A stretch of 64,000 nt of DNA, taken from contig NZ_CP118610.1 in NCBI RefSeq assembly GCF_028993555.1, positions 4,182,292 to 4,246,291 on the forward strand, written 5' to 3'. Shown in pieces: positions 1 to 13,707 of the stretch. Made by a program: the position numbers and the translations under genes. The notes beneath the pieces were generated by a model. It did no database searches. It worked only from the letters and a program-made list of their open reading frames with translations, and was not told the DNA's origin. The DNA is from Ensifer adhaerens (lineage in GTDB: Bacteria > Pseudomonadota > Alphaproteobacteria > Rhizobiales > Rhizobiaceae). Within the stretch, counting starts at the first letter, position 1. Every line of letters begins with the position of its first letter.

Positions 1-209
1 GCGGTCGCAGCGGCCGACTGATAAAGGCCCTTTGGCATGATGGGATCGGCCTATCGCTGTACGCGAAGCGGCTCGAGCGCGGCCGCTTCATTTGGCCGGC
101 GACGGAGGATGGTGCGATCGCGCTGACCGCCGGTCAGATGTCCTATCTGCTGGAGGGGATTGATTGGCGAAACCCGCAACAGACCTGGCGCCCGACCAGT
201 GCCGGGTGA
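1..209 (+). CDS. tnpB: IS66 accessory protein TnpB, 3' end
   Basis: This is the C-terminal part of the IS66 ORF2 product (frame 3 of the window, stop TGA at 207-209); the start lies before base 1. The visible 68 residues contain the family pattern of a Trp-His-Asp-Gly run followed by LSLYAKRLERGRF and a WP, matching the conserved end of TnpB. The protein is required for IS66 transposition, but its biochemical role is poorly defined. It is followed 78 bases later by tnpC, as usual. Confidence 0.85.
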   Translation, partial: GRSGRLIKALWHDGIGLSLYAKRLERGRFIWPATEDGAIALTAGQMSYLLEGIDWRNPQQTWRPTSAG

Positions 210-287
210 CCGTCTGAAGGGCGATTACTCCGCAACAAGTTCTTTGAAATGCTAGGCAAATCAGGGCTTCTGTGATTCACTTCGGGC

Positions 288-1940
288 ATGGAAAACAGCC
301 CCGATTTGCTTCCCGACGATGTTGCCGCCCTGCGAGCAGAGCTCATCGCGGCACGCGCCAAGGGCGCCCAGATCGAGGCTGAACTTGCCGTTGCCAAAGC
401 CAAAGCGTCCGACGATCTTGCTGTCATTGCCCGGCAGAAGCTGCGCATCGAAAAACTCGAGCGGCAGCTTTACGGCCCGAAGGCAGAGCGTCGCGCCCGG
501 CTGATCGATCAGATGGAGTTCCAACTGGCGGAGTTGGAGATGGCGGCGACCGAGGACGAACTCGCGGCCGAAATGGCGGTGGCGGCCACCGTCAATGTCG
601 CCGGCTTTACCCGCAACCGGCCGGTGAAGAAGCCTTTGCCCGAGCATCTTCCGCACGAACGCGTCGTCGTGCCCGGTCCCGTGAGCTGCCAGTGCTGTGG
701 TGGCGACCGACTGCGCAAGCTGGGCGAGGACATCACCGAGACCCTCGAGGTCGTTCCGCGCCAATGGAAGGTGATCCAGACGGTGCGCGAGAAGTTCACC
801 TGCCGCGATTGCGAAAAGATCAGCCAGGCGCCGGCCCCTTTCTATGCCATCCCGCGTGGATGGGCCGGCCCCAATCTCCTGGCGATGATCCTGTTCGACA
901 AGTTCGGCCAGCACCTGCCGCTCAACCGTCAGGTCGAGCGCTTCGAACGCGAAGGCGTTCCGCTCAGCCTGTCGACGGTGGCCGACAGCATCGGAGCTTG
1001 CTGTGCCGCACTCACTCCGCTCCTCAAACGGATCGAAGCCCATACGTTTGCGGCGGAGCGATTGCACGGTGACGACACGACGGTTCCGGTCCTGGCGGCA
1101 GGAAAGACCGATATTGCCCGAAGTTGGGTCTATGTCCGCGACGATCGCCCGTTCGGCGGCACGGCTGCACCATCGGCGATGTTCTACTATTCCCGTGACC
1201 GCGCGGGCGAGCACCCGCAGGCGCATCTCGCCGGCTATAGCAGCATTCTGCAGGCGGACGCCTATGGCGGATACACCAAGCTCTATCTTCCGGATCGACG
1301 GCCCGGCCCGATAACGGAAGCAGCCTGCTGGGTCCATGCGAGGCGGCCCTTCTACGCGATGGCCGACGTCGAGGCGAATGCGCGCCGACGAGCGCAGGGC
1401 AAGACGCCGGCTGTCATCTCGCCGATCGCCCTGGAGATGGTGCAGCGAATCGATGCCCTGTTCGACATCGAGCGCGACATCAACGGTCAGAGCGCGGAGT
1501 TCCGAAAGTCGGTTCGTCAGGAGCGCAGCAAACCCTTGGTCCTGGAGCTGGAAGCGTGGATGAAGGCTCAGCGTGCCAAGCTGTCGCGCGATCATGATCT
1601 CGCCAAGGCCTTCGATTACCTGCTGAACCGCTGGCCGGCCTTCACCCTCTTCCTCGATGACGGGCGTGTTTGCCTCTCGAACAATGCCGCCGAACGCGCC
1701 CTGCGCGGCATAGCTTTGGGCAGGAAATCGTGGTTATTCGCCGGATCGGACCGCGGTGGCCAGCGCGCCGCCGCCATGTACAGCTTGATTGTCTCGGCCA
1801 AGATGAACGGCGTCGATCCGCAAGCCTGGCTCGCCGACGTACTTCACCGCATCGCCGGTTATCCCGCGCATCGCATCGATGAGTTCTTGCCTTGGAATTG
1901 GAAGAGCGCGTCGCCAGCGGCGCACATGCACGCGGCCTGA
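288..1940 (+). CDS. tnpC: IS66-family transposase TnpC
   Basis: This 550-residue DDE transposase is close to the usual 500-550 residues of the family and appears intact. The N-terminal 80 residues form a Leu/Ala-rich coiled coil. A zinc-finger-like region follows (Cys134, Cys136/137 and Cys172, Cys175). The catalytic core has an Asp in LHGDDTT (about residues 262-263), a second Asp in QADAYGGY (324) and the Glu in NNAAERALRG near residue 475. It follows tnpB in the same orientation. A long open frame on the opposite strand is a codon-bias shadow. Since tnpC and the right end are intact, the element may still be active if the unseen left end is also intact. Confidence 0.93.
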   Translation: MENSPDLLPDDVAALRAELIAARAKGAQIEAELAVAKAKASDDLAVIARQKLRIEKLERQLYGPKAERRARLIDQMEFQLAELEMAATEDELAAEMAVAATVNVAGFTRNRPVKKPLPEHLPHERVVVPGPVSCQCCGGDRLRKLGEDITETLEVVPRQWKVIQTVREKFTCRDCEKISQAPAPFYAIPRGWAGPNLLAMILFDKFGQHLPLNRQVERFEREGVPLSLSTVADSIGACCAALTPLLKRIEAHTFAAERLHGDDTTVPVLAAGKTDIARSWVYVRDDRPFGGTAAPSAMFYYSRDRAGEHPQAHLAGYSSILQADAYGGYTKLYLPDRRPGPITEAACWVHARRPFYAMADVEANARRRAQGKTPAVISPIALEMVQRIDALFDIERDINGQSAEFRKSVRQERSKPLVLELEAWMKAQRAKLSRDHDLAKAFDYLLNRWPAFTLFLDDGRVCLSNNAAERALRGIALGRKSWLFAGSDRGGQRAAAMYSLIVSAKMNGVDPQAWLADVLHRIAGYPAHRIDEFLPWNWKSASPAAHMHAA

Positions 1941-2000
1941 AGATGCCGGCCATCCGGCCGCAACGCGGACCGCAAATCACGCCGAAAAATCCAAAAGCCT

Positions 2001-2459
2001 TCAGCCTGCGGCCTTCGCCGGATGCTTACCTCGTTTCGAGTGTCGAGCTACTTTGATCTGAACCGTTTGATCACGCCACGTAGCGTCGTAGTCCCGTGAC
2101 CCGGACCCCGCCTTCTTCAAACCGTAGTGGCGTATAGCTATAAACTCTCCAAAATCACCGAGTAGATTTCCGAGGCCAGCCCACCTGTATCGTCCATTGA
2201 CTTCTTTAAGCCGCTTCTGAAGGTGGAATATTTGAAGAATGTGCTGCTGCACGTCGGTACAAGCAGCATCGCAAACGTCCTGTTCACACATACGACCTAG
2301 CGTCTCCACGTTGCAAATGTGAATGGCTTCTAGTCGAAACTTTTCAAAGGACCCGTTAATTGCCTCGGCCGCTGGCCCAAATGGTTCTACCGGAGCGCCA
2401 AAATAGGTGCACGCTTTCCTTTGCGCAGCGGATAGGTCTTCACAACTGGTATTTCCCAA
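2001..2459 (-). pseudogene. PD-(D/E)XK-like (DUF6998-type) protein gene cut by IS66
   Basis: The native gene supplies codons 1-143 (2459 down to about 2030); the last residues and stop come from the IS66 end. The C-terminal half has GDFGEF (101-106, Glu105), then DYDA (Asp123/Asp125) and VQIK (133-136). This order of Glu, Asp and Q-x-K is what I associate with restriction-endonuclease-fold DUF6998 domains; the assignment is by eye. It probably starts at TTG 2459, three bases after the stop of the upstream gene, so translation is likely coupled. It is the third gene of an AT-richer operon (3438 to 2001). The original protein continued beyond the break, so function is probably impaired or lost. 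Confidence 0.6.
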
Positions 2460-2461
2460 GA

Positions 2462-2857
2462 TCAGTTCGAGTCGTCGGACTTAAGGAGGTCATCCAGCAC
2501 ACCCAGCTGATAAACATGCAAAGACTGCACTTTGTTGAACAACTCCCTAACTATCGGCATGCTCGGGGCAGTCGTTACTAAGTCTTCTCTGATCGGAGTC
2601 GTATGTTGATAAATCTCCAGAGAGTAATATGGGCCGTTCCATATATAATCGTTCGGTTCCTCGTCGTACCACTCCTGCCTTTGAACCTGCTTTAAAACAT
2701 ACCTATTCTTTTGGTGTTTAGCCTCATACGCCCTGTCCACCTTTTCATTGTTTACGTCATCGTATTCATGAGCTAATTCCCATTTAATTTGCTGCTTTGA
2801 CGTAAGCTCGGTCAGCTTCGAAACGGCTCTGATCCAGTCGTGTTGCGTGTAAACCAT
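2462..2857 (-). CDS. Hypothetical protein, 131 aa
   Basis: I do not recognise a family. The protein is acidic and rich in Trp, Tyr and Asn/Gln, with a Trp/Tyr-rich centre (EWYDEEPNDYIWNGPYY), no signal peptide and no membrane segment. Its ATG overlaps the stop of the upstream gene (TAATG at 2857), and the next gene begins three bases after its own stop, so the three form one translationally coupled operon. Base composition is clearly AT-richer than the chromosome to the right, which suggests recent acquisition. Being sandwiched between a membrane protein and a nuclease-like protein hints at a multi-protein complex, but no activity can be assigned. Confidence 0.7.
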   Translation of the reverse strand: MVYTQHDWIRAVSKLTELTSKQQIKWELAHEYDDVNNEKVDRAYEAKHQKNRYVLKQVQRQEWYDEEPNDYIWNGPYYSLEIYQHTTPIREDLVTTAPSMPIVRELFNKVQSLHVYQLGVLDDLLKSDDSN

Positions 2858-3438
2858 TATTTTGCTTTCTCTTCCTCAATCGAGGTGCTGACGTGCAGAC
2901 TGATCTCGTTCAGTTCTCTGAAAAGGTCCCACATCGCGTCACATTCGTTGAGCAGCGTGCCTGCTGATCGATTCGCAGAAAGCCACTTTGTGACTTTCCG
3001 ATTTTTAGAGATTATAGACTTAGCGAGCTTTCTATTTTTGAAGCCGTTCAACCGTCCGAGAGCGGCGATTTGTACCGACACTTCAGAAAATACTTGTGCC
3101 GTAATAGCCTGGTCGGCAGGCAATTCGGCGATATCCGCTAGTTGTGGGGCCAATTTATCAATTTTCCTGCGTAAATCAGGTAAGCGGACACGAGCGAAGT
3201 AGCGATCAGAAAGTCGCTTGACGCCCAGCGCAGCATACCCTGAGAATACGAGCCCTAGATATCCTATGAAAAAGGCAATGATAGACAGCCAATCTATCAG
3301 CCGATAGGTACCAAATTCTGGTGGCAGTGGTTTGCTAAGATACCAGGCTGTTAGAAACAGCGCTGGCGCAACCAAAAATGTAATGATGAATGCGGTCACT
3401 GCTCTTCCGAGGTTTTTAGCGGATCGATCTGCATACAC
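2857..3438 (-). CDS. Two-TM membrane protein with cytoplasmic C-terminal domain
   Basis: This 193-residue protein has two hydrophobic helices (about residues 12-34 and 50-73). A basic segment follows with the DLRRKIDKL helix, and a mostly helical hydrophilic C-terminal domain of about 115 residues. It is the first gene of the operon with the 131-aa protein and the truncated nuclease-like protein, sharing a TAATG junction with the former. I do not recognise the family. Small operons pairing a two-TM protein with a nuclease-like partner occur among anti-phage systems, but that is an analogy and not a family match. AT-rich composition supports foreign origin. Confidence 0.7.
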   Translation of the reverse strand: MYADRSAKNLGRAVTAFIITFLVAPALFLTAWYLSKPLPPEFGTYRLIDWLSIIAFFIGYLGLVFSGYAALGVKRLSDRYFARVRLPDLRRKIDKLAPQLADIAELPADQAITAQVFSEVSVQIAALGRLNGFKNRKLAKSIISKNRKVTKWLSANRSAGTLLNECDAMWDLFRELNEISLHVSTSIEEEKAK

Positions 3439-3514
3439 GCTATTTACAATAGAGTTACAACCTGGGAAAGACCGTGAGCAATGTCTTCATTTCCGTCGGA
3501 CAATACCCCCAGTG

Positions 3515-3709
3515 CCACTACCTGACTGAGCTTGGAGTGGCCACTATGAAGGCCCTACAAGAACTTGCGACCCCTGTAGTGGTCGAAAAACCCACCGATG
3601 AGGTATACCCTCGCGGACGCTTGCCATCGACGGCCAGATGGCGTCCGCAAGGGTTGTTACTTGCATCCGGACGCCTGAACCTCTGGATATGATCCAATCG
3701 GACAGTCCG
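3515..3709. repeat. Cluster of dyads upstream of the small serine recombinase
   Basis: The stretch between the divergent genes at 3438 and 3718 contains several inverted repeats. CCACTAC (3515-3521) faces GTAGTGG (3576-3582), with the palindrome AGTGGCCACT (3536-3545) between them. GCGGACGC (3613-3620) faces GCGTCCGC (3641-3648), with an inner GCCATC/GATGGC pair. TGGAT-ATCCA lies at 3684-3696. CGGAC-A-GTCCG (3699-3709) overlaps the ribosome binding site of the recombinase. Resolvases usually have their recombination site and operator directly upstream, so this may be a res-like site. No consensus is recognised. Confidence 0.4.
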
Positions 3710-3717
3710 GAGGACAC

Positions 3718-4350
3718 ATGCCCGTCATTTTCTATGCTCGCGTTTCCACCGCAGAACAGAATATTGATCACCAGACCGCCCAAGCTCGGGCGGCTGGTTT
3801 CGTCATCGACGAAATCATTGCCGATCACGGCATATCAGGTATCAGCACGTGTCTTGCTGATCGTCCCCAAGGAAAGCGGCTTTTCGACAAGCTTCGGACG
3901 GGCGATACCCTCGTTGTCCGTTGGGTGGACCGGCTTGGCCGCAATTACAGTGATGTGACAGACACAATCCGCCACTTCATCCGGCAGGGCGTTGTGATCC
4001 GGACAGTCATAAACGGCATGACATTCGATGGCTCGACTACAGACCCCATGCAGCAGGCGGTGCGGGATTCACTCATTTCGTTCATGGCTGCGATGGCACA
4101 GGCTCAGTCAGAGGTAACGAAGGAGGCTCAGAAGGCTGGGATCATGGCGGCGAAACGCGATAGCCGGAAGTACCCCGGCAAGAAGCCGAGCTACACCCGT
4201 CGCGATTTTGAAACGATCCAGGAGATGCTGATGGCTGGTTCCGGAGCGTCCTTCATAGCGAGGGAAACAGGTTTGACGAGGCAGACAATACTCCGGATCA
4301 AAACTGACCCAGTTGCGGCGGAAGCGGCCTTATCGCGATGGAGATTGTGA
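3718..4350 (+). CDS. Serine recombinase, resolvase/invertase family
   Basis: This 210-residue protein has the resolvase layout. The N-terminal catalytic domain shows YARVSTAEQ with nucleophile Ser10 and an Arg-rich active-site segment (RWVDRLGRN). A long helix follows, then a C-terminal helix-turn-helix (about residues 165-205, with ASFIARETGLTRQTI). It catalyses site-specific DNA inversion or cointegrate resolution at short dyad sites. The ATG at 3718 has GGAGG five bases upstream. It is divergent from the membrane-protein operon, and dyads in the shared intergenic region may be its site. Its role in the element could be multimer resolution, expected for a replicating circular form. It is much shorter than the 551-aa integrase at 11113-12768, so it is not the integrase. 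Confidence 0.9.
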   Translation: MPVIFYARVSTAEQNIDHQTAQARAAGFVIDEIIADHGISGISTCLADRPQGKRLFDKLRTGDTLVVRWVDRLGRNYSDVTDTIRHFIRQGVVIRTVINGMTFDGSTTDPMQQAVRDSLISFMAAMAQAQSEVTKEAQKAGIMAAKRDSRKYPGKKPSYTRRDFETIQEMLMAGSGASFIARETGLTRQTILRIKTDPVAAEAALSRWRL

Positions 4351-4477
4351 CCGGCCCAAGCGTCGGGAAATCGACCACCAGGGGAATTTTTGCCCTTGGG
4401 CCCCATCATGTCCGGTCATTTCTCATAAGTTGTCCTATGCAACGCGGGACGCGACCTTTCTCTCAAAGGAGATCGCG

Positions 4478-5248
4478 ATGCCGCAGCACCAGCTTACCCC
4501 CGCCCAGAAGTCCAAAATCAGGAAGCAAGAAGAACGTCGCGAACGCGAACGCCAGCGGCGCGAAGATGAATATCGCCGCCGTGTCGAGCGATTACGTCGC
4601 CAGATCGAGGAGGCGCGAAAGCGTCGCCAGCGCCTACTGCTCCTACTATTACTGGCATTGCTTGCAGCCCTGGAATCGACACGGCCAGCTTTTACGTTTC
4701 AGCATTGGCACGAACCACGTCCAGAACCGAAAGAAAAACCGAAAGAATGGGCCCCATCGCCGGAAAATGATTTCGCGCCCCGTCGCGGCCACGACGACTA
4801 TATCGACGGCTACTCCTATGAGCAGTGGACAAGACTGGCGGACGCTCGCGGCATCAGCCTAACGAGTAAAGCTGCGCTCAAACGGCGCTGGGAGGCGGAC
4901 CCGGAGCATGAGCTTTTTCCGCGCCGCTATAGAGATTGGGGCTATCGTCCAACCCTTCGCGAACTCATGTACGACCTAACCGCACCATATTGGCAAGCCG
5001 ATGCGTTCGCGGCGATCAAACTCATGTCCCCTGCCGAAACTCACCAATATTTGGACGAAGCATATGCGACTGACCTCGGCGATTTGTTGATGTGCCGTGC
5101 GGGTTCCAGCGACGAAATCACCAAAAATTTCCAGTCCGCTGCCGTCGGGTGGGAAATCCGCAAGCGCCGCGAAGCCGAAGAAGCAAAACGCGAACGGGAA
5201 TTATCGCGAAAAAACGACGGTGACCAAGGAATTCCCGAGCCAAATTGA
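4478..5248 (+). CDS. Hypothetical membrane-anchored protein with basic coiled coil
   Basis: The start at ATG 4478 has a strong AAAGGAG seven bases upstream; a longer frame beginning at 4313 overlaps the recombinase gene and is less likely. The 256-residue product begins with about 45 residues of highly charged Arg/Glu coiled coil. One hydrophobic helix follows (about 47-62, a run of Leu), then a Pro/Glu-rich linker. The C-terminal domain (about 95-235) contains YEQWTRLADARGI, an RRYRDWGYRP motif, and a charged tail. I do not recognise a family. It follows the recombinase in the same direction. The 3' end runs into the first arm of the repeats at 5222-5382. Confidence 0.7.
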   Translation: MPQHQLTPAQKSKIRKQEERRERERQRREDEYRRRVERLRRQIEEARKRRQRLLLLLLLALLAALESTRPAFTFQHWHEPRPEPKEKPKEWAPSPENDFAPRRGHDDYIDGYSYEQWTRLADARGISLTSKAALKRRWEADPEHELFPRRYRDWGYRPTLRELMYDLTAPYWQADAFAAIKLMSPAETHQYLDEAYATDLGDLLMCRAGSSDEITKNFQSAAVGWEIRKRREAEEAKRERELSRKNDGDQGIPEPN

Positions 5249-5382
5249 AGGGATTTTTCCGAGAATTCCTTGGTCGGAGACCTGGCAATTCTTCGTTGCA
5301 AGGAGTTTTCTCGAAAATTCGACCGCACCAAAGGAATTTGGAAGAAAATCATTTAATTTGATTTTTTAGAAGAATTCCTTTG
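5222..5382. repeat. Two tandem inverted-repeat pairs with AAGGAATT core
   Basis: GACCAAGGAATTC (5222-5234) faces GAATTCCTTGGTC (5263-5275), a perfect 13-bp inverted repeat. About 105 bases further, ACCAAAGGAATT (5328-5339) faces AATTCCTTTG (5373-5382), a degenerate second copy. The two pairs have almost the same size (54-56 bp), and AT-rich DNA lies in and after the second. The layout resembles paired binding sites for a recombinase or replication protein, or two similar RNA hairpins. The first arm overlaps the end of the gene at 4478-5248. Confidence 0.6.
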
Positions 5383-5455
5383 CTCAAAAAAACCATTTGA
5401 CGGAATAAATTTGCTCAACTACCTATTCGTCGTTCACAACGAAAAGGAGCTTGGC

Positions 5456-5722
5456 ATGATGAATACAATCTACATCTCTGCGGACGTGATCCAGAATTCG
5501 ATGCTCGACACGGGCGACGCGATTGCGGCTTTCAGCAATTGGAAGCCAAAGCCAGGGGAGGCCGTCTTCAGGTACGAGGCGGCAGACATCCGCATTACGG
5601 CTGCGGGCGGTGCGATCTACCTGATGTCTGAGGAGGAGACGACACAGCCGAAAATCCCGTTCACTCCTGTGCCCGCTGCCGAGATTGGTAAGCTCGTGCG
5701 GTCGTTAAATGGTGCCGCATAA
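5456..5722 (+). CDS. Small hypothetical protein, 88 aa
   Basis: The ATG at 5456 has AAAAGGAG eight bases upstream; a start at 5411 is open but lacks this site. The product is a small acidic protein with alternating hydrophobic stretches (ADIRITAAGGAIYLM) suggesting beta strands, and no signal peptide or membrane segment. The family is not recognised. Its TAA overlaps the ATG of the next gene (TAATG at 5719-5724), so the two are translationally coupled. It lies inside the mobile element between the small recombinase region and the mobilization operon, which runs the opposite way. Confidence 0.65.
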   Translation: MMNTIYISADVIQNSMLDTGDAIAAFSNWKPKPGEAVFRYEAADIRITAAGGAIYLMSEEETTQPKIPFTPVPAAEIGKLVRSLNGAA

Positions 5723-6024
5723 TGGCGGCGTTGCCACCAGACCATGACCTGTCAGGCGACGAGACTATTACCCAATTTCGGATGTATCGGAGCCGGTACC
5801 GGCGGTGCAGCCTTTGCGTCATACCGGCCATCATCAAAGGACAGATATTCGAAAAGTGGCATCAGGCCGCCACGGATGAGCAGCCGTTCACCGTGGCAGA
5901 CGTGAAGAGTATCATATCGAAGAGGTGCGGTGACTGCTCCTCGAAGGGATGGCCGAAAGTGTCGGTCGAGGGCAGCACCCTCTTCCTGCATGTCGCCAGT
6001 AGCGACCGGCGGAAGATGAAATGA
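5722..6024 (+). CDS. Small protein with two CxxC pairs
   Basis: This 100-residue basic protein overlaps the upstream gene by one base (TAATG). Cys29-x-x-Cys32 and Cys69-x-x-Cys72 form two CxxC pairs about 37 residues apart, the layout of a zinc ribbon or similar metal-binding fold; the region between is amphipathic. I cannot name a family. A DNA- or RNA-binding role is possible but unproven. Its 3' end faces the 3' end of the convergent mobilization operon at 6097. Confidence 0.6.
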   Translation: MAALPPDHDLSGDETITQFRMYRSRYRRCSLCVIPAIIKGQIFEKWHQAATDEQPFTVADVKSIISKRCGDCSSKGWPKVSVEGSTLFLHVASSDRRKMK

Positions 6025-6096
6025 TCGGTAGAGAAGATGATGCGGGGACGGCTCCATTCGCCCCCGCACCTCCCGCTCCGAGCCACAGAGCGGACA

Positions 6097-6489
6097 TTAG
6101 GAAATGGTGATTGACAGCACCAAATCCGAATACTCGCCGTCCTTCGTCGCCTTTATGGTGACGCTATAATTTCCCCGCTGCGCAGCGACACCAATGATTT
6201 TGCCGGTTGACGTATCGAGCATCAACCCCACAGGCAGCCGGTCTTTCGAATTGAATACATATCCGCCGACATCGCCGACAGGAGAGACTTTGACGACCGA
6301 TCCGGCGGCAACCCGGATCGGCGCATAATGAACGCCAAGTACCGGTTCCTCCGGTTCGGGTTCCGGCTGTGTTGGCGCTGAATCAGAAATAACTGCGATA
6401 GTGCCGGTGGTTGGCGACCTCCAGACTATTTCACCAGCCGAAGCGCTGGACGCGGATAGGATGACTGCGATTGAAAGTGCTTTAAGCAT
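6097..6489 (-). CDS. Secreted Ig-fold (putative Ig/cadherin-like) small protein
   Basis: This 130-residue protein begins with a clear signal peptide (about 1-18, ending ASA before GEIVW). A Pro/Glu spacer (about 38-48) follows. The C-terminal domain has the pattern LPVGLMLDTSTGKIIGVA, then a Tyr-x-Val-x-Ile strand, typical of putative Ig (He_PIG) domains. It should be periplasmic or exported. Its ATG overlaps the stop of the relaxase gene at 6489, so it is the last cistron of the mobilization operon. A secreted Ig-fold protein in such a place is unusual; a surface, entry-exclusion or adhesion role is only a guess. Confidence 0.7.
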   Translation of the reverse strand: MLKALSIAVILSASSASAGEIVWRSPTTGTIAVISDSAPTQPEPEPEEPVLGVHYAPIRVAAGSVVKVSPVGDVGGYVFNSKDRLPVGLMLDTSTGKIIGVAAQRGNYSVTIKATKDGEYSDLVLSITIS

Positions 6490-7742
6490 TACGTTTTTTC
6501 CTTTTTTTTGAGATCGGGTTTCAATACCAGTTTCGGACCCAGCGAGAGTTCCGGCGCGGAATGATCGGCAGCAGGCGATAGAATCGACCGCAGTCGATCA
6601 CGCTCGACGCCCGCCTTAAAGGCCGCATCTTTCGCCTCACGAGCTTGTTGCTCTGCTTCATAGCGCTGGCGCTCTGCTTCAAGCTGTCTGCGCTCGGCGT
6701 CTTTTGCCTTGTCGCGCCAACGGTCTATTTCACCTGAAAGGTCAGACCGGATTTGCTCGACTAGCTTTGATCTCCGAAATCCATCCCAGATGGCGCGGAT
6801 GCGACCGGCCCAGCCGCCGTATTTAACAGCGTCCGCCATTGCCGCTTTCGCCTGCTCCTGTTCTTGCCGGGCGCGATCCTGCGCAGCCAGAGCGGCAGCA
6901 GCGGCTTTGCGGGCAGCCTCCTGCGCGCGAGCAGCATCGGCGGCGATGTTGGCGGCATCGGCCTTCGTACGGCTTATGTAGGCCTCACCATCCGCCTTGA
7001 CTGCCTTCGCGCGCTGGACGACCTTTTGCAGTGATTTCGCTTGTACCTGTTCACGCTGCCACTCATCCCGCGTCAGGCGGCGACGTTGCGGGCCGAGTCG
7101 CGTAAGACCGGAGGGTACGGCAACCGCTACATGGTAGGAATCTTGCCATGCCCGCATTGTAGCCTTGTAGGCGGCATTGGCACGCTTCATGAGTGCCTTT
7201 TGATCCTCGCCTTCGGTTGAACCAGCATCCATTACGGACCGCTTCACGGTCGCGCCGGGGTGGTATTTCTGCGCTTTCAGCTCAGGATCGGAGATCGGCA
7301 CGACATAAGCGTGGATATGAAAATGGGACTCGTCTTCGTGACGGATCACGGATTTCAAATCGTCGCCATACTGGTGTCGCAACCATTCGACCGTCCGCTT
7401 CTCCCACGCTTCTGCCTCCCGGCGCTTGCCGGGATCGACGCGGATTTCGTCCATGGTGAGAGGATGCGAGGCGACAACCGTGTGAAGTGTCTTTTGATCG
7501 GTGCGGATTTTCCGGGTCTTGCCGCCCTTAACTGCGACAGTGGCGCTCGCCACGGCGGCGTCATGCATTTCCTGTACATCCTCAATACCGATGCCGAACA
7601 CGACGACAGGCGTCAAGGGAGCAGAAACATGCACCGAGACTTCAGGGCGACGAGATGCTTCACCGAAAATAAAATTCGTGTCCCGACCCTTCGCGTCCGC
7701 CTTGCGAGCATACCCCTCTAAATGGATAAACTGGTAGCCCAC
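6489..7742 (-). CDS. mob: MobV-type (Mob/Pre) relaxase
   Basis: This 417-residue protein would nick oriT and lead strand transfer during mobilization. Residues 135-144 read HEDESHFHIH, matching the metal-binding HxDExxPHxH motif of Mob/Pre (MobV) relaxases with Phe in place of Pro. The N-terminal half (1-230) is the relaxase domain. The C-terminal half (about 235-400) is a long Ala/Arg/Glu coiled coil, as is common in this family. The upstream 105-aa gene ends nine bases before its ATG, and the following secreted protein overlaps its stop, so the three are one operon. No coupling protein or type IV secretion genes are visible, so transfer would need helper functions. Confidence 0.88.
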   Translation of the reverse strand: MGYQFIHLEGYARKADAKGRDTNFIFGEASRRPEVSVHVSAPLTPVVVFGIGIEDVQEMHDAAVASATVAVKGGKTRKIRTDQKTLHTVVASHPLTMDEIRVDPGKRREAEAWEKRTVEWLRHQYGDDLKSVIRHEDESHFHIHAYVVPISDPELKAQKYHPGATVKRSVMDAGSTEGEDQKALMKRANAAYKATMRAWQDSYHVAVAVPSGLTRLGPQRRRLTRDEWQREQVQAKSLQKVVQRAKAVKADGEAYISRTKADAANIAADAARAQEAARKAAAAALAAQDRARQEQEQAKAAMADAVKYGGWAGRIRAIWDGFRRSKLVEQIRSDLSGEIDRWRDKAKDAERRQLEAERQRYEAEQQAREAKDAAFKAGVERDRLRSILSPAADHSAPELSLGPKLVLKPDLKKKEKT

Positions 7743-7751
7743 TGCATCACC

Positions 7752-8069
7752 TCAAGTCATGCGACGGCGCAACACTTCAGCACAAAGAACGTCATTAAGC
7801 TCATCCCAGTTGTCGCCAAACTCAGCAACAAGCTCATATTTCAGTTCGCAAGATCGGCCTTCGACATCCCACATCCACTCCGCGACCGGCCCGTATTGCG
7901 GATGCGTACGCAGATCGCGCCACTCGCCCAATTCAGGCGATTTCCAGATTTTCGCAAGCGCTGGATCATTTGCACGCACTGTGCGGTGCAACGCATGCAA
8001 AGTTGTTACTCGCACTATGTCTAGGTCGACAATTGCCGCGACTTTCGCCGAAATATCATCTTCAGTCAT
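7752..8069 (-). CDS. Hypothetical protein upstream of relaxase, 105 aa
   Basis: This small acidic protein starts at ATG 8069 and ends nine bases before the relaxase start, so it is the first gene of the mobilization operon. It is rich in Trp and charged residues (EWRDLRTHPQYG and EWMWDVEG) and has no membrane segment. Genes in this position often encode relaxase accessory or oriT-binding proteins, but no ribbon-helix-helix pattern is evident and the family is not recognised. Confidence 0.6.
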   Translation of the reverse strand: MTEDDISAKVAAIVDLDIVRVTTLHALHRTVRANDPALAKIWKSPELGEWRDLRTHPQYGPVAEWMWDVEGRSCELKYELVAEFGDNWDELNDVLCAEVLRRRMT

Positions 8070-8167
8070 TGCTTCGCTCCAAAGAATAGGAAATTACTCC
8101 TACAATGGTGCGGGCAAAAACAATGGGCGCAAAGCGGATTTTGGTACCGGAAACAAAGATATAGTGA

Positions 8168-8196
8168 CCGACTAGCACTATCTTCGATAGTGTCGG
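8168..8196. other. Hairpin upstream of the mobilization operon, candidate oriT
   Basis: A perfect 7-bp stem CACTATC (8176-8182) and GATAGTG (8186-8192) with loop TTC is extended, after a bulge, by CCGA (8168-8171) with TCGG (8193-8196). It lies about 100 bases upstream of the first mobilization gene, in the 8070-8430 stretch that otherwise has no gene. MobV relaxases act on hairpin-forming oriT sites close upstream of mob, so this is a reasonable candidate. No nic consensus was matched. Confidence 0.4.
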
Positions 8197-8398
8197 CTCT
8201 CCGAGGGGCCTTCAGCCGGACCACTTCATGGAGACAACGCCGTTGAGGGTCTGCCGACTGCCCCCTCATTCGCCGGGGAGGCGATCACTCTCAGGCCGCA
8301 TGGCCTCGTTGCCAGCCATTGGCCGACAAAGCGAAACGCTGGAAAATCAGCGTTCGTCACGAAGTGATGCGGTGTATGGTGTTTACCTTCCACGGGGT

Positions 8399-8419
8399 CC
8401 GGGGGGCTTTGTCCCCCGG
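8399..8419 (-). terminator. GC hairpin after the replication gene
   Basis: CCGGGGG (8399-8405) pairs with CCCCCGG (8413-8419), about 12 bases beyond the stop of the minus-strand replication gene. It lacks a T-run on the minus strand, so it may be a weak terminator or an mRNA-stabilising hairpin. A second small palindrome (GAAAATCATAATTTTC) lies at about 8426-8441. Confidence 0.45.
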
Positions 8420-8430
8420 TCATGGGAAAA

Positions 8431-9915
8431 TCATAATTTTCCTTGTCTTTGGCGCGCCTGCCGTGCCTCAGCCATAGCCTTGGAAATCTGCCCCGCCGAC
8501 ACATTGAAATGCGCTGCAAGGTCATCGCGACGCATGCCCTTCGTTGCTTGCAGATATAGCGCCATACCGCCCATCTCTAGTCGTGCCGCCTGTTGTACGC
8601 CCCGATCCTTCACGCCTCTGTCACGCCTCGACCTCTCCATGCGCTCGACGGAAAGTTCCCGTTTCCGGCCTTGATCAACCAACACCCGCAAACCTGCCGC
8701 GCGCTGTTCCGCCGGATCGATCCGAAGCCATTCGACAATGGTGCTGGCCTTCACCTGATAACGGCAATCGACCTCGCGACCGTTGAACGTAATCGTCTGT
8801 CCTGCCGCTGCCTGCCGCGCGCGCTTGATCACGGAGCACATGCGGGATTTCGTTTCGCTGTCGCGCCATCCCGCCGCCTCGTTCGCGAGCGATATGATTT
8901 CTCGACCAAGAACTTCCGCCGGAGAAATCCATGACATGGCAACGCCCGCCATGAACAGCCATGCGTCACGCTGGCCTTCCGGCAAATCGCCCTCTGGACA
9001 ACGATACGCCCGAAGTCGTTGGAGATCGGTCAGCACTGTTTCCCAATAGGTCGCCGCCGACAGATGTACCGCCGGGCCTGTCTGGTCCTTTCCCGCCGCC
9101 TTGCGCTTCGCCCGCTCAGCACGGAGAGAAATTAGCTCAGCATGGGTGACAGGTAGGACTTCATCTGCAAGCGTCCCAAAATCGTGGCGCGTCGGCGCTT
9201 CCGGCGACCCATGACACCACACCATCCCGACTTTGCACCTGTCCCGGTCTGCGCTGGAGTTCTCGCTTCCTGCAAGCCGAAAGACGCGGGCCGCGTCCAA
9301 TGCCCGCTTGTCCGCTCCGAACGGCTCTAGAACCGATCCTAGACGCTTCTGGACGGCATTCCACCGAGGTAGGACGGCACGAGGAAGCAATTCCGACAGC
9401 CAAACACAAACAAGACCTCGGCCCGTCGACAGGATATACGACGGATGTGGGATAATCGCTTCTTCCAGATGACCGAGAACGGCACTGGCTACATCGCTCG
9501 GAGCCTTCCCACGCCACCGAGCTACATTGTGATAGTCGAGGTCCGCATAGCAGGCCCCGATAGCCGTCAGTTGTGAAATAGATCGCCATTTCCAAAATGC
9601 GGCTTGCGAGACGTACAGGTCAGTCCGGTTTTCCTGCTGAAAAAGCCGTTCGGCCTCCATTATCGCGCCGCCGCCGACGGGAACCGTCCACTCTTTCCAT
9701 GGCTTTTCCTGCCCGCGCACACGCTGCGCAAAGCTGATTACGCCATTTCTCAGGCCGCTGCGTGAACTGTTTGGATGGAGATTTTCAATGTGCTGGCGCG
9801 CACCAAAAGCGCCGTAGTCGAAACCTTGAGGCCCCGAATTAATGTCAACATTTCTTTTTTGAAAATCGTCTGTCTGTGTGTTTTGGGCTGGGCTATGTGC
9901 CAGCCCCCCGGTCAC
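8431..9915 (-). CDS. Primase-polymerase-like plasmid replication protein
   Basis: This 494-residue protein is probably the replication initiator/primase of the element's circular form. It carries the order of motifs of archaeo-eukaryotic-type primase-polymerases: YADLDYHN with Asp125/Asp127, then STGRGLVCVW (163-172), then a DAARVFRLAGSEN segment (207-219). The C-terminal 70 residues are basic and end in a helix-turn-helix-like stretch (DDLAAHFNVSAGQISKAM). Proteins of this kind occur as RepB-like primases in mobilizable plasmids. The GTG start at 9915 has no clear ribosome binding site, and the true start could lie further in. A terminator and a structured AT/GC region lie upstream and may include the origin. 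Confidence 0.7.
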   Translation of the reverse strand: MTGGLAHSPAQNTQTDDFQKRNVDINSGPQGFDYGAFGARQHIENLHPNSSRSGLRNGVISFAQRVRGQEKPWKEWTVPVGGGAIMEAERLFQQENRTDLYVSQAAFWKWRSISQLTAIGACYADLDYHNVARWRGKAPSDVASAVLGHLEEAIIPHPSYILSTGRGLVCVWLSELLPRAVLPRWNAVQKRLGSVLEPFGADKRALDAARVFRLAGSENSSADRDRCKVGMVWCHGSPEAPTRHDFGTLADEVLPVTHAELISLRAERAKRKAAGKDQTGPAVHLSAATYWETVLTDLQRLRAYRCPEGDLPEGQRDAWLFMAGVAMSWISPAEVLGREIISLANEAAGWRDSETKSRMCSVIKRARQAAAGQTITFNGREVDCRYQVKASTIVEWLRIDPAEQRAAGLRVLVDQGRKRELSVERMERSRRDRGVKDRGVQQAARLEMGGMALYLQATKGMRRDDLAAHFNVSAGQISKAMAEARQARQRQGKL

Positions 9916-9979
9916 TCAGCCGTCAATGGCGGCTTTACAATGTCATAAAGATTGTTCATCATTATAAAACATTCCTACG

Positions 9980-10023
9980 AAAAACCGACCGAGGGCCGCT
10001 AACCCTATGACGTCGGTTTTTTT
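9980..10023 (-). terminator. Intrinsic terminator, usable on both strands
   Basis: AAAAACCGAC (9980-9989) pairs with GTCGGTTTTT (10012-10021), with an inner AGGG/CCCT pair in the loop. Read on the minus strand, it ends the transcript of the 112-aa gene at 10049-10387 before the replication gene; the T-run on both sides makes it bidirectional. Confidence 0.7.
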
Positions 10024-10048
10024 ATGCTCAGAGCAAAGATGATCGGCG

Positions 10049-10387
10049 TCAAGCGTTAACGCGATCCCGCCGAAGGATGACAGATGCAACGGCGGCAGCA
10101 TAATCATCATGTGCATACTCCAGGAGGTGCCACGCCTTGCCACCAGCAAGCTCATCCGCAAATCTGGAATAATCCGCAGCGTGAAGAATGGCCATGATAA
10201 GGGCGGTTTCACCTGATGATGCGGGAAAGCTCATCAGGCGTTCAACAAGCGCGCCCTCAGTCTTCTTATTCACTTGCTGAAAGTGCGCAGCAAACGCTGA
10301 CCAAGACGTCACGCCCATCAACGAAAGTCCGACCCGTTCGCAAAGGTTGCCCGCAGGTCCACCACGAAAATCACTAAATGCTAACAT
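10049..10387 (-). CDS. Hypothetical protein, 112 aa
   Basis: ATG 10387 is preceded by AAGGAGT, a strong ribosome binding site. The product is helical, Ala-rich and soluble, with segments such as ALIMAILHAADYSRFADEL, and has no recognised domain. It is transcribed alone: a terminator lies just after it (9980-10023), and nearly 500 bases without genes lie upstream. Its position beside the replication gene and a possible origin suggests a copy-control or partition-related role, but nothing in the sequence proves this. Confidence 0.6.
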   Translation of the reverse strand: MLAFSDFRGGPAGNLCERVGLSLMGVTSWSAFAAHFQQVNKKTEGALVERLMSFPASSGETALIMAILHAADYSRFADELAGGKAWHLLEYAHDDYAAAVASVILRRDRVNA

Positions 10388-10879
10388 GTCGCTTACTCCT
10401 TAAAAAACAGCCGACACGCCGCAGTTAGTGACATTTCTTGGGAATGTAAGAGAAAATCGTCGGCGATAGTCTCCCGGGGGCTTCGGCCCCCTGTCGCGGC
10501 CTTCCGGCCTTGCCCGCCCCCAACCTCATTGCCGGTGGGCTAGTCCGGACAGGGGCTAGCGGCCGTTGGCCTTCTGTCCCTGTCCGGTTGCCGTAGGATT
10601 GGGTCGCTCCGGTCAGTCAAGGGTTCGCTGCGCGCCGTCCTCGCCATGCGCGGCCTGCGGCCTGTGCGTGGCTCTGGGCGGCCCCCGTGACAGCCCTCCC
10701 GCTCCGCCTGGCACCCGAATAGGAGGTAAATGATTATCTCTCAAAACTATTAAAATCCGCTCAAATATGTTTACGAACCCTATCCCAAAGCCGTCATTTT
10801 TCCCGGGCACTGGATTCTCAATAATCGCGATTTTTGCTATATATTATGTAATAAAATCAATGAGAAAGCAGAGATTTCA
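10388..10879. other. Gene-free structured stretch, possible replication origin
   Basis: The first part (about 10470-10690) is GC-rich and full of hairpins. GGGGGC-TTCG-GCCCCC (10476-10491) has a UUCG tetraloop. GGCC-TTCC-GGCC follows at about 10498-10509. GCTAG...CTAGC lies at 10539-10560, and CCGGACAGGG (10545-10554) is inverted at CCCTGTCCGG (10578-10587). The second part (about 10735-10870) is strongly AT-rich, with TGCTATATATTATG just before the gene at 10880, probably its promoter. A structured GC block beside an AT-rich block, near a primase-like gene, resembles a plasmid origin. No iterons or DnaA boxes were recognised. Confidence 0.45.
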
Positions 10880-11116
10880 ATGCGCCAAACGATCACAAGA
10901 ATTCGAGGGCTGACGGTTAATATCGAAGTCGTCGAAGTCTGCCAGACAGACGCAAACGGCGGCATAATCTGGTATCACGCCGCGATCTACATCCAGCAGC
11001 ACGGAAGCAAGGAAAAGACGCTGGTCCGTAGGTCCCGTTTGCCTGGAGCGGCGGCGGAATTGAGGCGGGAGATTCAAAGAGATGGGATTCGAGCTTTCGA
11101 CCGGATCAAGGCTTAG
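10880..11116 (+). CDS. Small hypothetical protein, 78 aa
   Basis: This small basic protein has alternating beta-like segments in the first half (LTVNIEVVEV and WYHAAIYIQQ) and a basic helical end. It has no recognised family. An AT-rich promoter-like region precedes it. Its last four bases overlap the end of the convergent serine integrase gene. A regulatory role, such as a recombination directionality factor, is conceivable because of its place beside the integrase, but nothing specific supports it. Confidence 0.55.
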   Translation: MRQTITRIRGLTVNIEVVEVCQTDANGGIIWYHAAIYIQQHGSKEKTLVRRSRLPGAAAELRREIQRDGIRAFDRIKA

Positions 11117-12768
11117 TCCCAATCAAAGCTGGATCGAGGCACGCCAAAGAACGCCTCAAAGGCTTCGTCGGATGCGTTCTCTTCGAGCAGTACGATTGTA
11201 CCGATCCCCTGTCCGCCCTTCGTGAGATAGGTACCGTCTGTATCAATATGGAAGCGAGAGCGATTGGTAATCGTCATCTGTATCCCAGGCAGACGAGAAA
11301 ATTTGACATGATCGACTATCCCTCGAATAATCGCGTTCAACTTGACCTTCGTTGCCACAACCTTCTGTGTATCCACCGATTCGATATCGGCAAGCAAATC
11401 ATCCAACAACGCCTTGCGTGTTGCCGAGTCGTATTCAGACCTGACCATCTTCAGATCGGCCTTCGCCTTTTTCAGTTTTGCCTTTATTTCCTTTAATTCA
11501 GTTGCTGTTTGTTGGAACCGCTCATTTAACGCTTCGTCAAAGTCTGTTGTTTCCACAAGCCTCAGTAATTTATCGCGGACGCTCTCTTTGTCCGCCAGTT
11601 GTGCTTCCAAGGAAATGACTTCAGAGCCCTGGTTGGCTTCGTTTCGTTTGAAATCTATGTCTTCCGCGACAAGCTGGCTCAGCGCATGAAGCAATTTGCG
11701 CTCCGTCTCATCTACACGGTAATGTTTGGCGTTCTCGCAGCCCATCTTTCGCTTGGCGTTCTCGCAGACCAAATAAACGCCACCTTTTGGTTTCGGGCCT
11801 TTGTTGCTTATGTGCATGACGCTTTGGCATTCACCACATTTCGCCAAGCCTTTGAGGATATGCGCCCCTCTAACCCCGGTCCTTCCAGCCGATCCGTGCT
11901 GTCGGCTGGTTACGGCGGACTGCGCTTGCCAGAACATTTCCTCTTTTATGATGGGAGGGTAATAATCAAGTATTGGCTCGCCTTGAGGGGTGCGATTGCG
12001 AGCACTATGTCGACCAGCATGTGGCTGATACTCCCCAAGCACAGCTTTGCTGGATAAAATCTTAGCTATTGAGGATATTTGCCAGCCTTTTTTCCCGCGA
12101 AAGGCTGGAATTCCAAGCTCATTCATTCTCCTGGAAATAGCGCGCCGACCAAATCCGTCTATTGTTGCCTCGAAAATACGGTAAACAATCTTGGCTCTTT
12201 CCTCGTTTATTACAAATTTTCCGCCTTCGATGCTAAGCCATTCTGGGCACCGCTTCGTGATAGGAATTTTCTTAGATCGAGCCGCAGCTTTTTTCTGCTT
12301 CCAAGCCTCGCCAACTCGCTCGGATTTGATCCGCGATTCCTCGTGTGCGCGGGCCATTACAATCAATGAGAAGAGCAACGGCGTCCAATCTGTCCGCAGT
12401 CGCTCTTCCGAATACTCCTGTCCGTCGCTGAGCGTGACGACGATAATTCCAGCGCGAATGAGGTCGAAAAGCCGACTGGCGGCATCCATTACCGTTTCGC
12501 GCGAAATACGGTCGAGGCTTTCGACAATGAGATATGAACCCCGAACTACCTTTCCTGACTCGACCAACTGGAGGAAGGACCGTAAAGCGCCGGTGGTGCG
12601 GTTCGCTCCATGGTATGCGCTCACACCCAGGTCGCGAAGCGTGTCATCTAATTCAATGCCGCGTTCTTTGCACCAACTAGCGGCCTTCTCTGTTTGACGG
12701 CGAAGAGAGTCGCCGCGAGCCTGCTCAGGTGTCGAAAATCGAATGTAGGAGTAGGCTTTCGCGATCAT
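11113..12768 (-). CDS. int: Large serine recombinase (integrase) of the element
   Basis: This 551-residue protein would integrate and excise the element by attP x attB recombination. The N-terminal resolvase domain has YIRFSTPEQ with nucleophile Ser12 and SLDRISRE. The recombinase domain follows (about 150-270, containing SRRMNELGIPAFRGKKGW). A zinc ribbon comes next (about 305-345, CGECQS then CENAKRKMGC), then a coiled coil (about 370-470). This is the full layout of the large serine family and nothing is missing. The gene starts 37 bases from the point where comM coding sequence resumes. Integrases of this type sit beside their attachment site and often use conserved protein genes as targets, so comM is the inferred attB. 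Confidence 0.93.
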   Translation of the reverse strand: MIAKAYSYIRFSTPEQARGDSLRRQTEKAASWCKERGIELDDTLRDLGVSAYHGANRTTGALRSFLQLVESGKVVRGSYLIVESLDRISRETVMDAASRLFDLIRAGIIVVTLSDGQEYSEERLRTDWTPLLFSLIVMARAHEESRIKSERVGEAWKQKKAAARSKKIPITKRCPEWLSIEGGKFVINEERAKIVYRIFEATIDGFGRRAISRRMNELGIPAFRGKKGWQISSIAKILSSKAVLGEYQPHAGRHSARNRTPQGEPILDYYPPIIKEEMFWQAQSAVTSRQHGSAGRTGVRGAHILKGLAKCGECQSVMHISNKGPKPKGGVYLVCENAKRKMGCENAKHYRVDETERKLLHALSQLVAEDIDFKRNEANQGSEVISLEAQLADKESVRDKLLRLVETTDFDEALNERFQQTATELKEIKAKLKKAKADLKMVRSEYDSATRKALLDDLLADIESVDTQKVVATKVKLNAIIRGIVDHVKFSRLPGIQMTITNRSRFHIDTDGTYLTKGGQGIGTIVLLEENASDEAFEAFFGVPRSSFDWD

Positions 12769-12810
12769 GCAAACCTCATAGCATGGACTATGGGATTAAT
12801 GTAGCATAAC
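12769..12810. other. Right attachment junction of the element in comM
   Basis: Between the integrase start (12768) and comM codon H-N-L-L (from 12805) lie 36 bases with a CATAG...CTATG dyad (about 12777-12792). An in-frame TAG at 12802-12804 directly precedes the CAT codon of comM. The crossover should be within a few bases of 12800-12810. The exact core cannot be set without the left junction. Confidence 0.7.
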
Positions 12811-13707
12811 TTGCTGATGGTCGGACCGCCGGGATCAGGGAAATCCATGCTCGCCGCCCGCCTGCCGTCGATCCTGCCGCCGCTCAATCCGGCCGAACTG
12901 CTCGAAGTGTCGATGATCCATTCGATCGCCGGACAATTGCCGGGCGGCAAGCTCTCGGACCGCCGTCCCTTCCGCACGCCGCACCATTCCGCCACCATGG
13001 CCGCCATGGTCGGTGGCGGCTTGCGCGCCAAGCCCGGCGAGGCCTCGCTCGCGCATCACGGTGTGCTGTTCCTCGATGAGTTTCCGGAGTTTTCGCCCCA
13101 GGTGCTCGATGCGCTCCGTCAGCCGCTCGAAACCGCCGAGTGCATTATCGCCCGCGCCAATCATCGCGTCAGCTATCCTGCCGCCATCCAGCTGATCGCC
13201 GCCATGAACCCGTGCCGCTGCGGCATGGCGGGCGAGCCCGGCCGCACCTGCGCGCGCGGCCCGCGCTGCATGTCGGACTATCAGGCGCGCATCTCCGGCC
13301 CGTTGATGGATCGCATCGACATCCGCATCGACGTGCCGGCGGTCAGCGCCGCCGACCTGTTGAAGCCGGCGACAGCCGAAAGCAGCGAGGTCGTGGCCCG
13401 CCGGGTCGCCCGCGCCCGCGCCTTGCAAATCGATCGCTTCGCCGCCCTCGGCCATGCGGAGCTGACCAGCAATGCCCGGTGTTCGACCTCGATGATCGAG
13501 AAGATCGCCGAGCCCGACGCGGCGGGTCTGCAGCTTCTCCGAGACGCCGCCGAGAAGATGAAATTTTCCGCGCGCGGTTACCATCGTGTGCTGAAGGTCG
13601 CACGCACGCTCGCCGATCTCGACGGCGCGGCGACGGTCGGTCGTATTCATCTGGCCGAAGCGATTTCTTACCGAATTGCCGGCGAGAGGCTGCAGGCGGC
13701 GGCGTAA
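12805..13707 (+). pseudogene. comM: comM (YifB/Mg-chelatase-like helicase), 3' part, split by the element
   Basis: ComM is a hexameric AAA+ helicase that promotes branch migration during integration of transforming DNA. The visible 300 residues start HNLLMVGPPGSGKS, six codons before Walker A. They include the ATPase core (VLFLDEFPEF as Walker B), the AAMNPCRCG and Cys-rich segment, and the C-terminal Mg-chelatase domain with KMKFSARGYHRVLKVARTLADL. The family is usually about 500 residues, so the N-terminal Lon-like domain of about 200 residues is missing and must lie left of the element. A TAG stands in frame just before the first codon. TTG 12811 or ATG 12817 could start an internal product, but full ComM function is not expected while the element is integrated. 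Confidence 0.92.

Follow-up and report, generated by a model that had tools for sequence, protein, structure and literature searches.

A 20-kb element encoding a large serine integrase splits comM just before the Walker A motif in Ensifer adhaerens

RESULTS

Organization of the interrupted comM locus

The window analysed here, a stretch of 64,000 nucleotides, is C1:4182292-4246291 of a 7.77-Mb Ensifer adhaerens genome in four contigs. Over 62-67% of its length, a 12-kb stretch of the second contig has 84-87% identity to plasmids of Ensifer canadensis and E. adhaerens in the eight best records listed, in keeping with an Ensifer-like host. Its left end carries the right part of an inserted element, followed by the 3' part of comM, with the following features (window coordinates, strand where there is one):

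1..12813, right 12.8 kb of a 20,067-bp element, delimited by the junction coordinates
288..1940, plus strand, IS66 transposase inside the element (Pfam DDE_Tnp_IS66, 1.4e-87; NCBIfam IS66 over cut-off)
2001..2459, minus strand, small protein DUF6998 (Pfam PF22522, 2.1e-9)
3718..4350, plus strand, small serine resolvase of 210 aa (Pfam Resolvase, 3.3e-28, and HTH_7)
6489..7742, minus strand, MobV-like relaxase, a weak match (NCBIfam MobV, 8.9e-14, 52 bits against a cut-off of 100)
8431..9915, minus strand, 494-aa protein that resembles replication/primase proteins by eye only and matches no Pfam or NCBIfam family
10880..11116, plus strand, small ORF of 78 aa whose stop overlaps the integrase stop, with tblastn homologs near some integrases
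11113..12768, minus strand, large serine integrase of 551 aa (Pfam PF00239, PF07508, PF13408), start codon facing comM
12784..12844, attR, composed of the attP left arm (12784-12813), CT (12814-12815) and the attB right arm
12814..13707, plus strand, 3' part of comM, beginning at the exchange CT and including Walker A and the stop codon (Pfam Mg_chelatase, 3e-81; Mg_chelatase_C, 7.4e-29)

A preliminary description of this window proposed that a serine-integrase element had split comM just before Walker A, with the 5' part of the gene lying left of the window and more than 12.8 kb separating the halves. The search for that 5' part had been set in advance as the test that could refute the insertion, and we found it at C1:4174399-4175037 (L004:2400-3038), ending 7.25 kb before the window begins. 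Its last bases are GGC AAC CAC AAT CTT CT, after which the sequence diverges; the element spans 20,067 bp between the two CT positions, with a comM half at either side, its left 7.25 kb lying with the comM 5' half outside the window, in L004. On the right, a TAG at 12802-12804 directly precedes CAT AAC TTG CTG ATG (HNLLM...), as the description had it, and the comM 3' part that follows has 90-98% identity to 15 other genomes of the genus. The orientation of the integrase had been misread, however: it is the start codon, not the end of the gene, that faces comM, and the gene reads away from the junction. Joining the two flanks in silico yields an uninterrupted comM of 510 codons, in line with the suggestion that the gene is restorable, and excision would give back the exact frame.

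comM is thus disrupted in this genome. A genome search with each half returned one N-half and one C-half match, so no intact second copy was found. The frames that hold two weaker ChlI-domain matches, of 827 and 504 aa, are probably Lon and RadA. Relatives with an intact gene, which the description had proposed to look for, are the rule: in 14 of the 15 other genus genomes the comM frame runs uninterrupted across the site (446-576 aa). The remaining one, G123, has comM split at the same site by a different element of about 10 kb; the recombinase of that element, 564 aa long, shares the three domains and matches the comM integrases of L057 and L012 at 48-49%.

The junctions and the integrase

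The left junction reads CAC AAT CTT CTA ACG and the right junction CAT AAC TTG CTG ATG, with CA, AA and CT as the runs they have in common in register. Mirror symmetry of the arms singles out CT, the short shared repeat whose existence had been anticipated: 16 of 20 bases beside CT in the attR arm match the reverse complement of the attL-side arm, compared with 7 when the arms are centred on CA and 2 on AA. Near-symmetric element arms around one common CT are the mark of a serine-integrase attP, here an imperfect dyad around a two-base exchange point, with an attB that is unlike it. The exchange lies within the leucine codon before M215.

The integrase has the Resolvase, Recombinase and Zn-ribbon domains, each with a Pfam match over the cut-off, and is related to others found in comM. 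The residues R10, S12, R87 and R90 are invariant among 26 aligned integrase sequences, Ser12 lying in the catalytic domain, and both the catalytic serine and the arginines are therefore present. The best NCBIfam match is CcrB, at 80 bits far below the curated cut-off of 900; Ccr proteins are the large serine recombinases of SCC elements, which likewise use one conserved gene, a different target from comM. The serine recombinases of the element also give weak IS607 matches, below cut-off.

The 78-aa ORF was considered as a directionality factor and rejected. It has tblastn homologs in L128, L132, L150, L291 and L302, and matches in 6 of 121 genomes sampled from the host family, but four of those six are without any integrase match, so it is not specific to comM elements. 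No directionality factor was identified in the element.

Cargo of this and other comM elements

Several proteins of the element recur in its relatives. Homologs of the 494-aa protein (tblastn, 56-59%) lie directly after the integrase in L129 and L133, and proteins 45-48% identical to the MobV-like protein, which matches Pfam Mob_Pre below cut-off, are present in the comM elements L301, L291 and L132. In its part outside the window, the element has genes for a type IIG restriction-methylation enzyme (PADLOC PDLC03599, 1,396 bits) and, at L004:6472-9416, for a SIR2 protein (PADLOC, 7.6e-55) that adjoins HerA (1.4e-171) as expected of a SIR2-HerA pair, although NCBIfam anti-phage models match these two below cut-off. 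The part of the element's ORFs that was scanned yielded no conjugation apparatus and no Tn7-like transposase genes, the sole transposase family match among the scanned proteins being IS66; immediately beyond the left edge of the window, two small ORFs resemble IS66 partners by eye. With its putative relaxase, the element would probably be an integrative mobilizable one with defence cargo.

The element in G123 carries a C5 methylase, a Cfr10I/Bse634I restriction enzyme and a Rep_1 protein (Pfam, selected proteins). A PADLOC scan of 30 selected proteins from eight other comM elements gave a match at or below 1e-5 in seven of them (G054, G628, G008, G109, G435, G701 and G777); the one protein scanned from the G468 element gave none. 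Some of these matches, such as a helicase in G777, may be to non-defence genes.

Association of the integrase family with comM

The genome set held one genome per species. In an even sample of the host family (121 genomes, 118 with the comM C-half), comM is split at the Walker A site in 12 of the 118 (G000, G002, G008, G022, G023, G054, G078, G088, G100, G103, G109 and G112), and all 12 have an integrase match below 1e-60; among the remaining 106, such a match occurs in G057 alone, where comM is intact. Six genomes with a broken or cut comM but no family integrase (G012, G039, G083, G089, G102 and G114) are outside the count of site splits, and some of these broken frames are contig ends or frameshifts. 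At the level of the order, an integrase match of at least 1e-40 quality is present in 20 of 397 genomes, and a comM half is near the integrase in 18 of these 20 loci (1.3 kb away in L054), the exceptions being L062 and L069.

A scan of named genomes gave 467 integrase relatives, of which the best 80 were analysed. In 67 of the 80, no more than 1.5 kb separates the integrase from a comM end, and in three more the comM break is at the same sites, 2-4.4 kb away; the stretches around the other 10 contain no comM (L131, L143, L150, L165, L168, L191, L196, L198, L199 and L201). The comM-associated relatives come from Hyphomicrobiales and other Alphaproteobacteria, from Paraburkholderia and Undibacterium, from Pseudomonas, Marinobacter, Microbulbifer and Vreelandella, and from deltaproteobacterial lineages. 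Over the 93 loci from all sources with the integrase within 1.5 kb, 87 integrases have their start toward comM and 6 their end, and 58 lie next to the 3' half as against 35 next to the 5' half.

The integrase family is nonetheless not a single comM-only clade, since loci with and without comM are interleaved in a tree of 133 integrases (84 at the Walker A site, 11 at a second comM site described below, and 38 labelled other, a label that means only a stretch without visible comM and that was wrongly given to L015, which does not figure in the later tree). The tree requires 21 label changes, fewer than any of 200 shuffles but well above the minimum of 2. Neither phages nor plasmids emerged as a home for the family: among the best 80 of 418 viral-contig relatives only L217 abuts comM, and plasmid and phage matches are below 60% identity.

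A common exchange position

Of 36 genomes examined, 30 are split, and 20 of these could be read at both ends; G008 was left out because its 3' half is in two frames, G468 and G701 because the 3' end was missing from the comparison, and G002, G078, G100, G406, G475, G635 and G643 because the halves are on different contigs. All 20 elements show arm symmetry of 11-18 of 20 bases at one and the same comM position, and none of 700 comparisons at other offsets in these elements reaches 11. Swapped arms of different elements are also similar (mean 9.0 of 20, with 111 of 380 reaching 11), so the symmetry derives in part from shared ancestry of the arms.

The exchange dinucleotide is CT at both ends in 15 of the 20 and TT at both ends in one, while four (G123, G343, G435 and G586) have a C/T mismatch, which is not predicted by a strict two-base overlap; demanding an identical dinucleotide moves the best position in these four, and allowing C/T restores the common one. 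Because TTG and CTG leucine codons are both found at the site in intact comM genes, a mismatch-tolerant overlap or later mutation could explain the mismatches.

Two sites within comM

Insertions in comM are found at two places: site A at about codon 214, before Walker A, and site B, where the gene is broken at codons 27-35, near codon 32. Labels assigned by rule to the 93 loci gave 78 A, 10 B and 5 unclear. We set by hand to A the five unclear loci (L014, L053, L054, L138 and L151), L132, which the rule had missed, and L140 and L163, where the comM break is 2-4 kb away. Site B comprises 12 loci, the ten labelled by rule together with L157, assigned by eye from its translated upstream DNA, and L160, whose integrase is 4.4 kb from the break; one of the 12, L016, was too short for trees. 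Comparing the attL of L016 with the attR of L169, from different genomes, suggests that the site B exchange is most likely at CA in the codon before IVGLPD, which aligns with the CT before MVGPPG at site A.

A tree of 40 integrases (29 A, 11 B) implies six changes between A and B, five when L013 is omitted and four when both L013 and L159 are. L013 is doubtful; in its genome, G078, comM 1-35 and 212-509 lie on separate contigs, and the part in between could not be located. A single B clade is rejected by an AU test, which was run after seeing the tree and includes L013.

We also compared the two sites directly. In 13 genomes of or near the genus (of 15; L043 and L045 were dropped with one site unreadable), site B is identical to site A at 12-19 of 30 bases, and on the two strands of 64 kb of host DNA 7 to 7,450 windows match site A at least that well. 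Plain identity, a crude measure of integrase specificity, hence gives no support to the view that site B is the genome's best pseudo-site. That site B is not outstanding in this respect suggests, rather than proves, that the gene itself is favoured.

Sequence change on the comM lineage

The comM lineage of the host has accumulated 58 synonymous and 2 amino-acid changes, and that of the nearest intact relative, L036, 51 and 4 (outgroup L047; Fisher p 0.42). Six further intact relatives give p values of 0.10-0.66, and the split comM of G123 compared with seven relatives gives 0.36-1.0. The host gene shows no visible decay, with which a recent insertion and repeated restoration are both compatible.

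DISCUSSION

The element of about 20 kb very probably entered by attP x attB recombination in comM, at the leucine codon before MVGPPGSGKS, and its own integrase is the likely agent, judging from the junctions, the arms, the preserved frame and the related integrases at the same spot. comM is presumably inactive, since its N-terminal domain is separated from Walker A and the remaining ATPase. A plausible advantage to the element is that ComM-dependent recombination, by which an empty site could be swapped in, would be lowered, and excision with a directionality factor may restore the gene.

Insertion into this gene is well known. In work on regulated gene integrity, Mageeney et al. in 2020 reportedly listed yifB (= comM) among the genes that integrative elements split and that are restored on excision. 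Diverse large serine recombinases have been described to target one magnesium chelatase/ATP-dependent protease gene cluster, which accounts for 12.4% of predicted site-specific integrases, with DNA competence genes enriched (Durrant 2022, PMC10083194). This target cluster is in all likelihood comM/yifB, as its annotation fits, even though neither name occurs in the main text of that paper; the integrase described here resembles those in being a serine integrase inserted in a comM/yifB-type gene, whereas base-level sites and two-site switching in comM are not mentioned in the passages compared. Elements in comM have been noted in Aggregatibacter, Acinetobacter, Mannheimia, Francisella and Pseudomonas, with the hypothesis that they thereby escape removal by transformation (Croucher 2016, PMC4774983). 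In A. baumannii, comM is inactivated in 22% of 496 strains, the insertions being AbaR and elements that carry systems such as CBASS or Zorya (PMC11472951), and curing AbaR from comM raised transformation about 300- and 1,000-fold in two strains (PMC7508600). The AbaR, Tn6022 and Tsy islands are similar to the present element in splitting comM, and often carry defence or resistance genes where this one has defence cargo; transformation falls where they insert (PMC10293859, PMC7508600, PMC11472951). They differ in their Tn7-like or tyrosine-recombinase machinery, which is TnsF-guided to the Walker B region, Tn6022 and Tsy targeting comM near Walker B (PMC10293859), in contrast to the serine integrase and the codon just before Walker A seen here. 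Serine-integrase targeting of comM is thus already published, and this element is a well-documented new example, although no title among the matches listed, a set without subscription papers and supplements, describes a serine-integrase element in comM of rhizobia. What we have not met in the literature compared, as far as those texts extend, is the common base-level exchange position together with repeated switching between sites A and B; alternation between two spots in comM seems less explored.

Why the family favours comM is a separate question from how the element entered. It is quite possible, if short of probable, that the Walker A codons are merely convenient, conserved but dispensable DNA that aids spread across species, with loss of ComM bringing no benefit. 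The target does encode a conserved motif, the comM C-half is present in 383 of 394 family genomes, and occasional insertions occur at look-alike DNA elsewhere, as in L150, where the flank resembles the comM attB. Such convenience sits less easily with the four to six switches between two sites of one gene despite 7 to 7,450 equally similar windows, an argument that is suggestive only, or with the targeting of comM by the unrelated machineries of Tn6022 and Tsy (PMC10293859). We therefore tentatively raise the possibility, which we hold to be somewhat on the improbable side, that the family conserves largely the gene and not the site, moving repeatedly between A and B, and that selection acts for the loss of ComM and not for an easy place to land. 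This reading would span Alpha-, Beta-, Gamma- and deltaproteobacterial lineages, with members mostly within comM.

The present state of the element bears on two further explanations. That it is a dead relic, an immobile island with comM permanently lost, we regard as unlikely; an IS66 insertion lies inside it, and shrunken related inserts exist, such as one of 2.76 kb containing little besides its integrase (G103), but the integrase here is full-length and keeps the family-invariant residues, and both att half-sites look intact. Distinctly less probable is a switch in which regulated leaving and returning of the element toggles comM, in the manner of the phage in comK of Listeria. The exact restoration of the frame when the flanks are joined is in its favor, as is the substitution pattern of the host comM relative to L036; a recent one-off insertion explains the missing decay equally well, however, the scan of the element gave no directionality factor, no circle or empty site of the same strain was seen in a genome set with one genome per species, and in at least one relative the 3' half of comM has decayed and its frame is split (G008).

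The inserted element described here is a case resolved to the base within a wide family that time and again disrupts the gene for a recombination helicase, a gene that two other published recombination machineries break too, and the two-site pattern provides a natural test of selection on mobile elements to disable ComM. If such selection is real, loss of ComM would be selected even in bacteria without known natural transformation, and ComM would be a threat to integrated elements whenever incoming DNA recombines, whatever its way into the cell. By title, no paper among the matches listed is on natural transformation in Sinorhizobium. We note that ComEC is present in the host genome, and a host with ComEC, whether or not it is transformable, makes the role of ComM in rhizobia directly testable.

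Integrase relatives outside comM

The integrase of Rhizobium calliandrae CCGE524 (L150:536-735, within one of the DNA stretches compared) has the highest best-segment identity (67%), and is not located in comM. Its location has DNA similar to the empty comM target, attB (GCCGGCGGTCACAAC), and the adjoining frame resembles, by eye, an outer-membrane efflux protein; this insertion point is likely a secondary site. The integrase of Bosea sp. 12-68-7 (L201) is a near-match to that of L202, but adjoins a frame of stomatin-type appearance (by eye), unlike its L202 counterpart, which lies in comM.

Atypical comM loci

Four loci (L175, L177, L190, and L188), whose bins are deltaproteobacterial or Bacillota, have an integration module with a different layout: the comM 5′ half is faced by the end of the integrase rather than by its start. 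In genome G100, comM and the integrase are both in pieces, spread over contigs C12, C13, and C24; those of comM comprise 2-35 and 131-216 as well as the 3′ part. This distribution suggests that elements occupy both sites of a single comM, around codon 214 (site A) and at codons 27-35 (site B). In genome G078, comM codons 1-35 and 212-509 are on separate contigs (L317:4949-5053; L013/L115) and the middle of the gene, between codons 35 and 212, was not found; this gap possibly reflects a deletion from site B to site A, or else an assembly gap.

The exchange dinucleotide differs (C/T) between the left and right element junctions, attL and attR, in four genomes (G123, G343, G435, and G586), a mismatch that is not expected under a strict two-base overlap.

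The 2.76-kb insert in comM of G103 (L288) carries the integrase and hardly anything more, and is an element that is either minimal or shrunken. In G022, approximately 103 kb lies between the comM halves (G022:C4:3365161-3468086), and in the tree the integrase of this genome has a row identical to the one for Fulvimarina pelagi HTCC2506 (L195).
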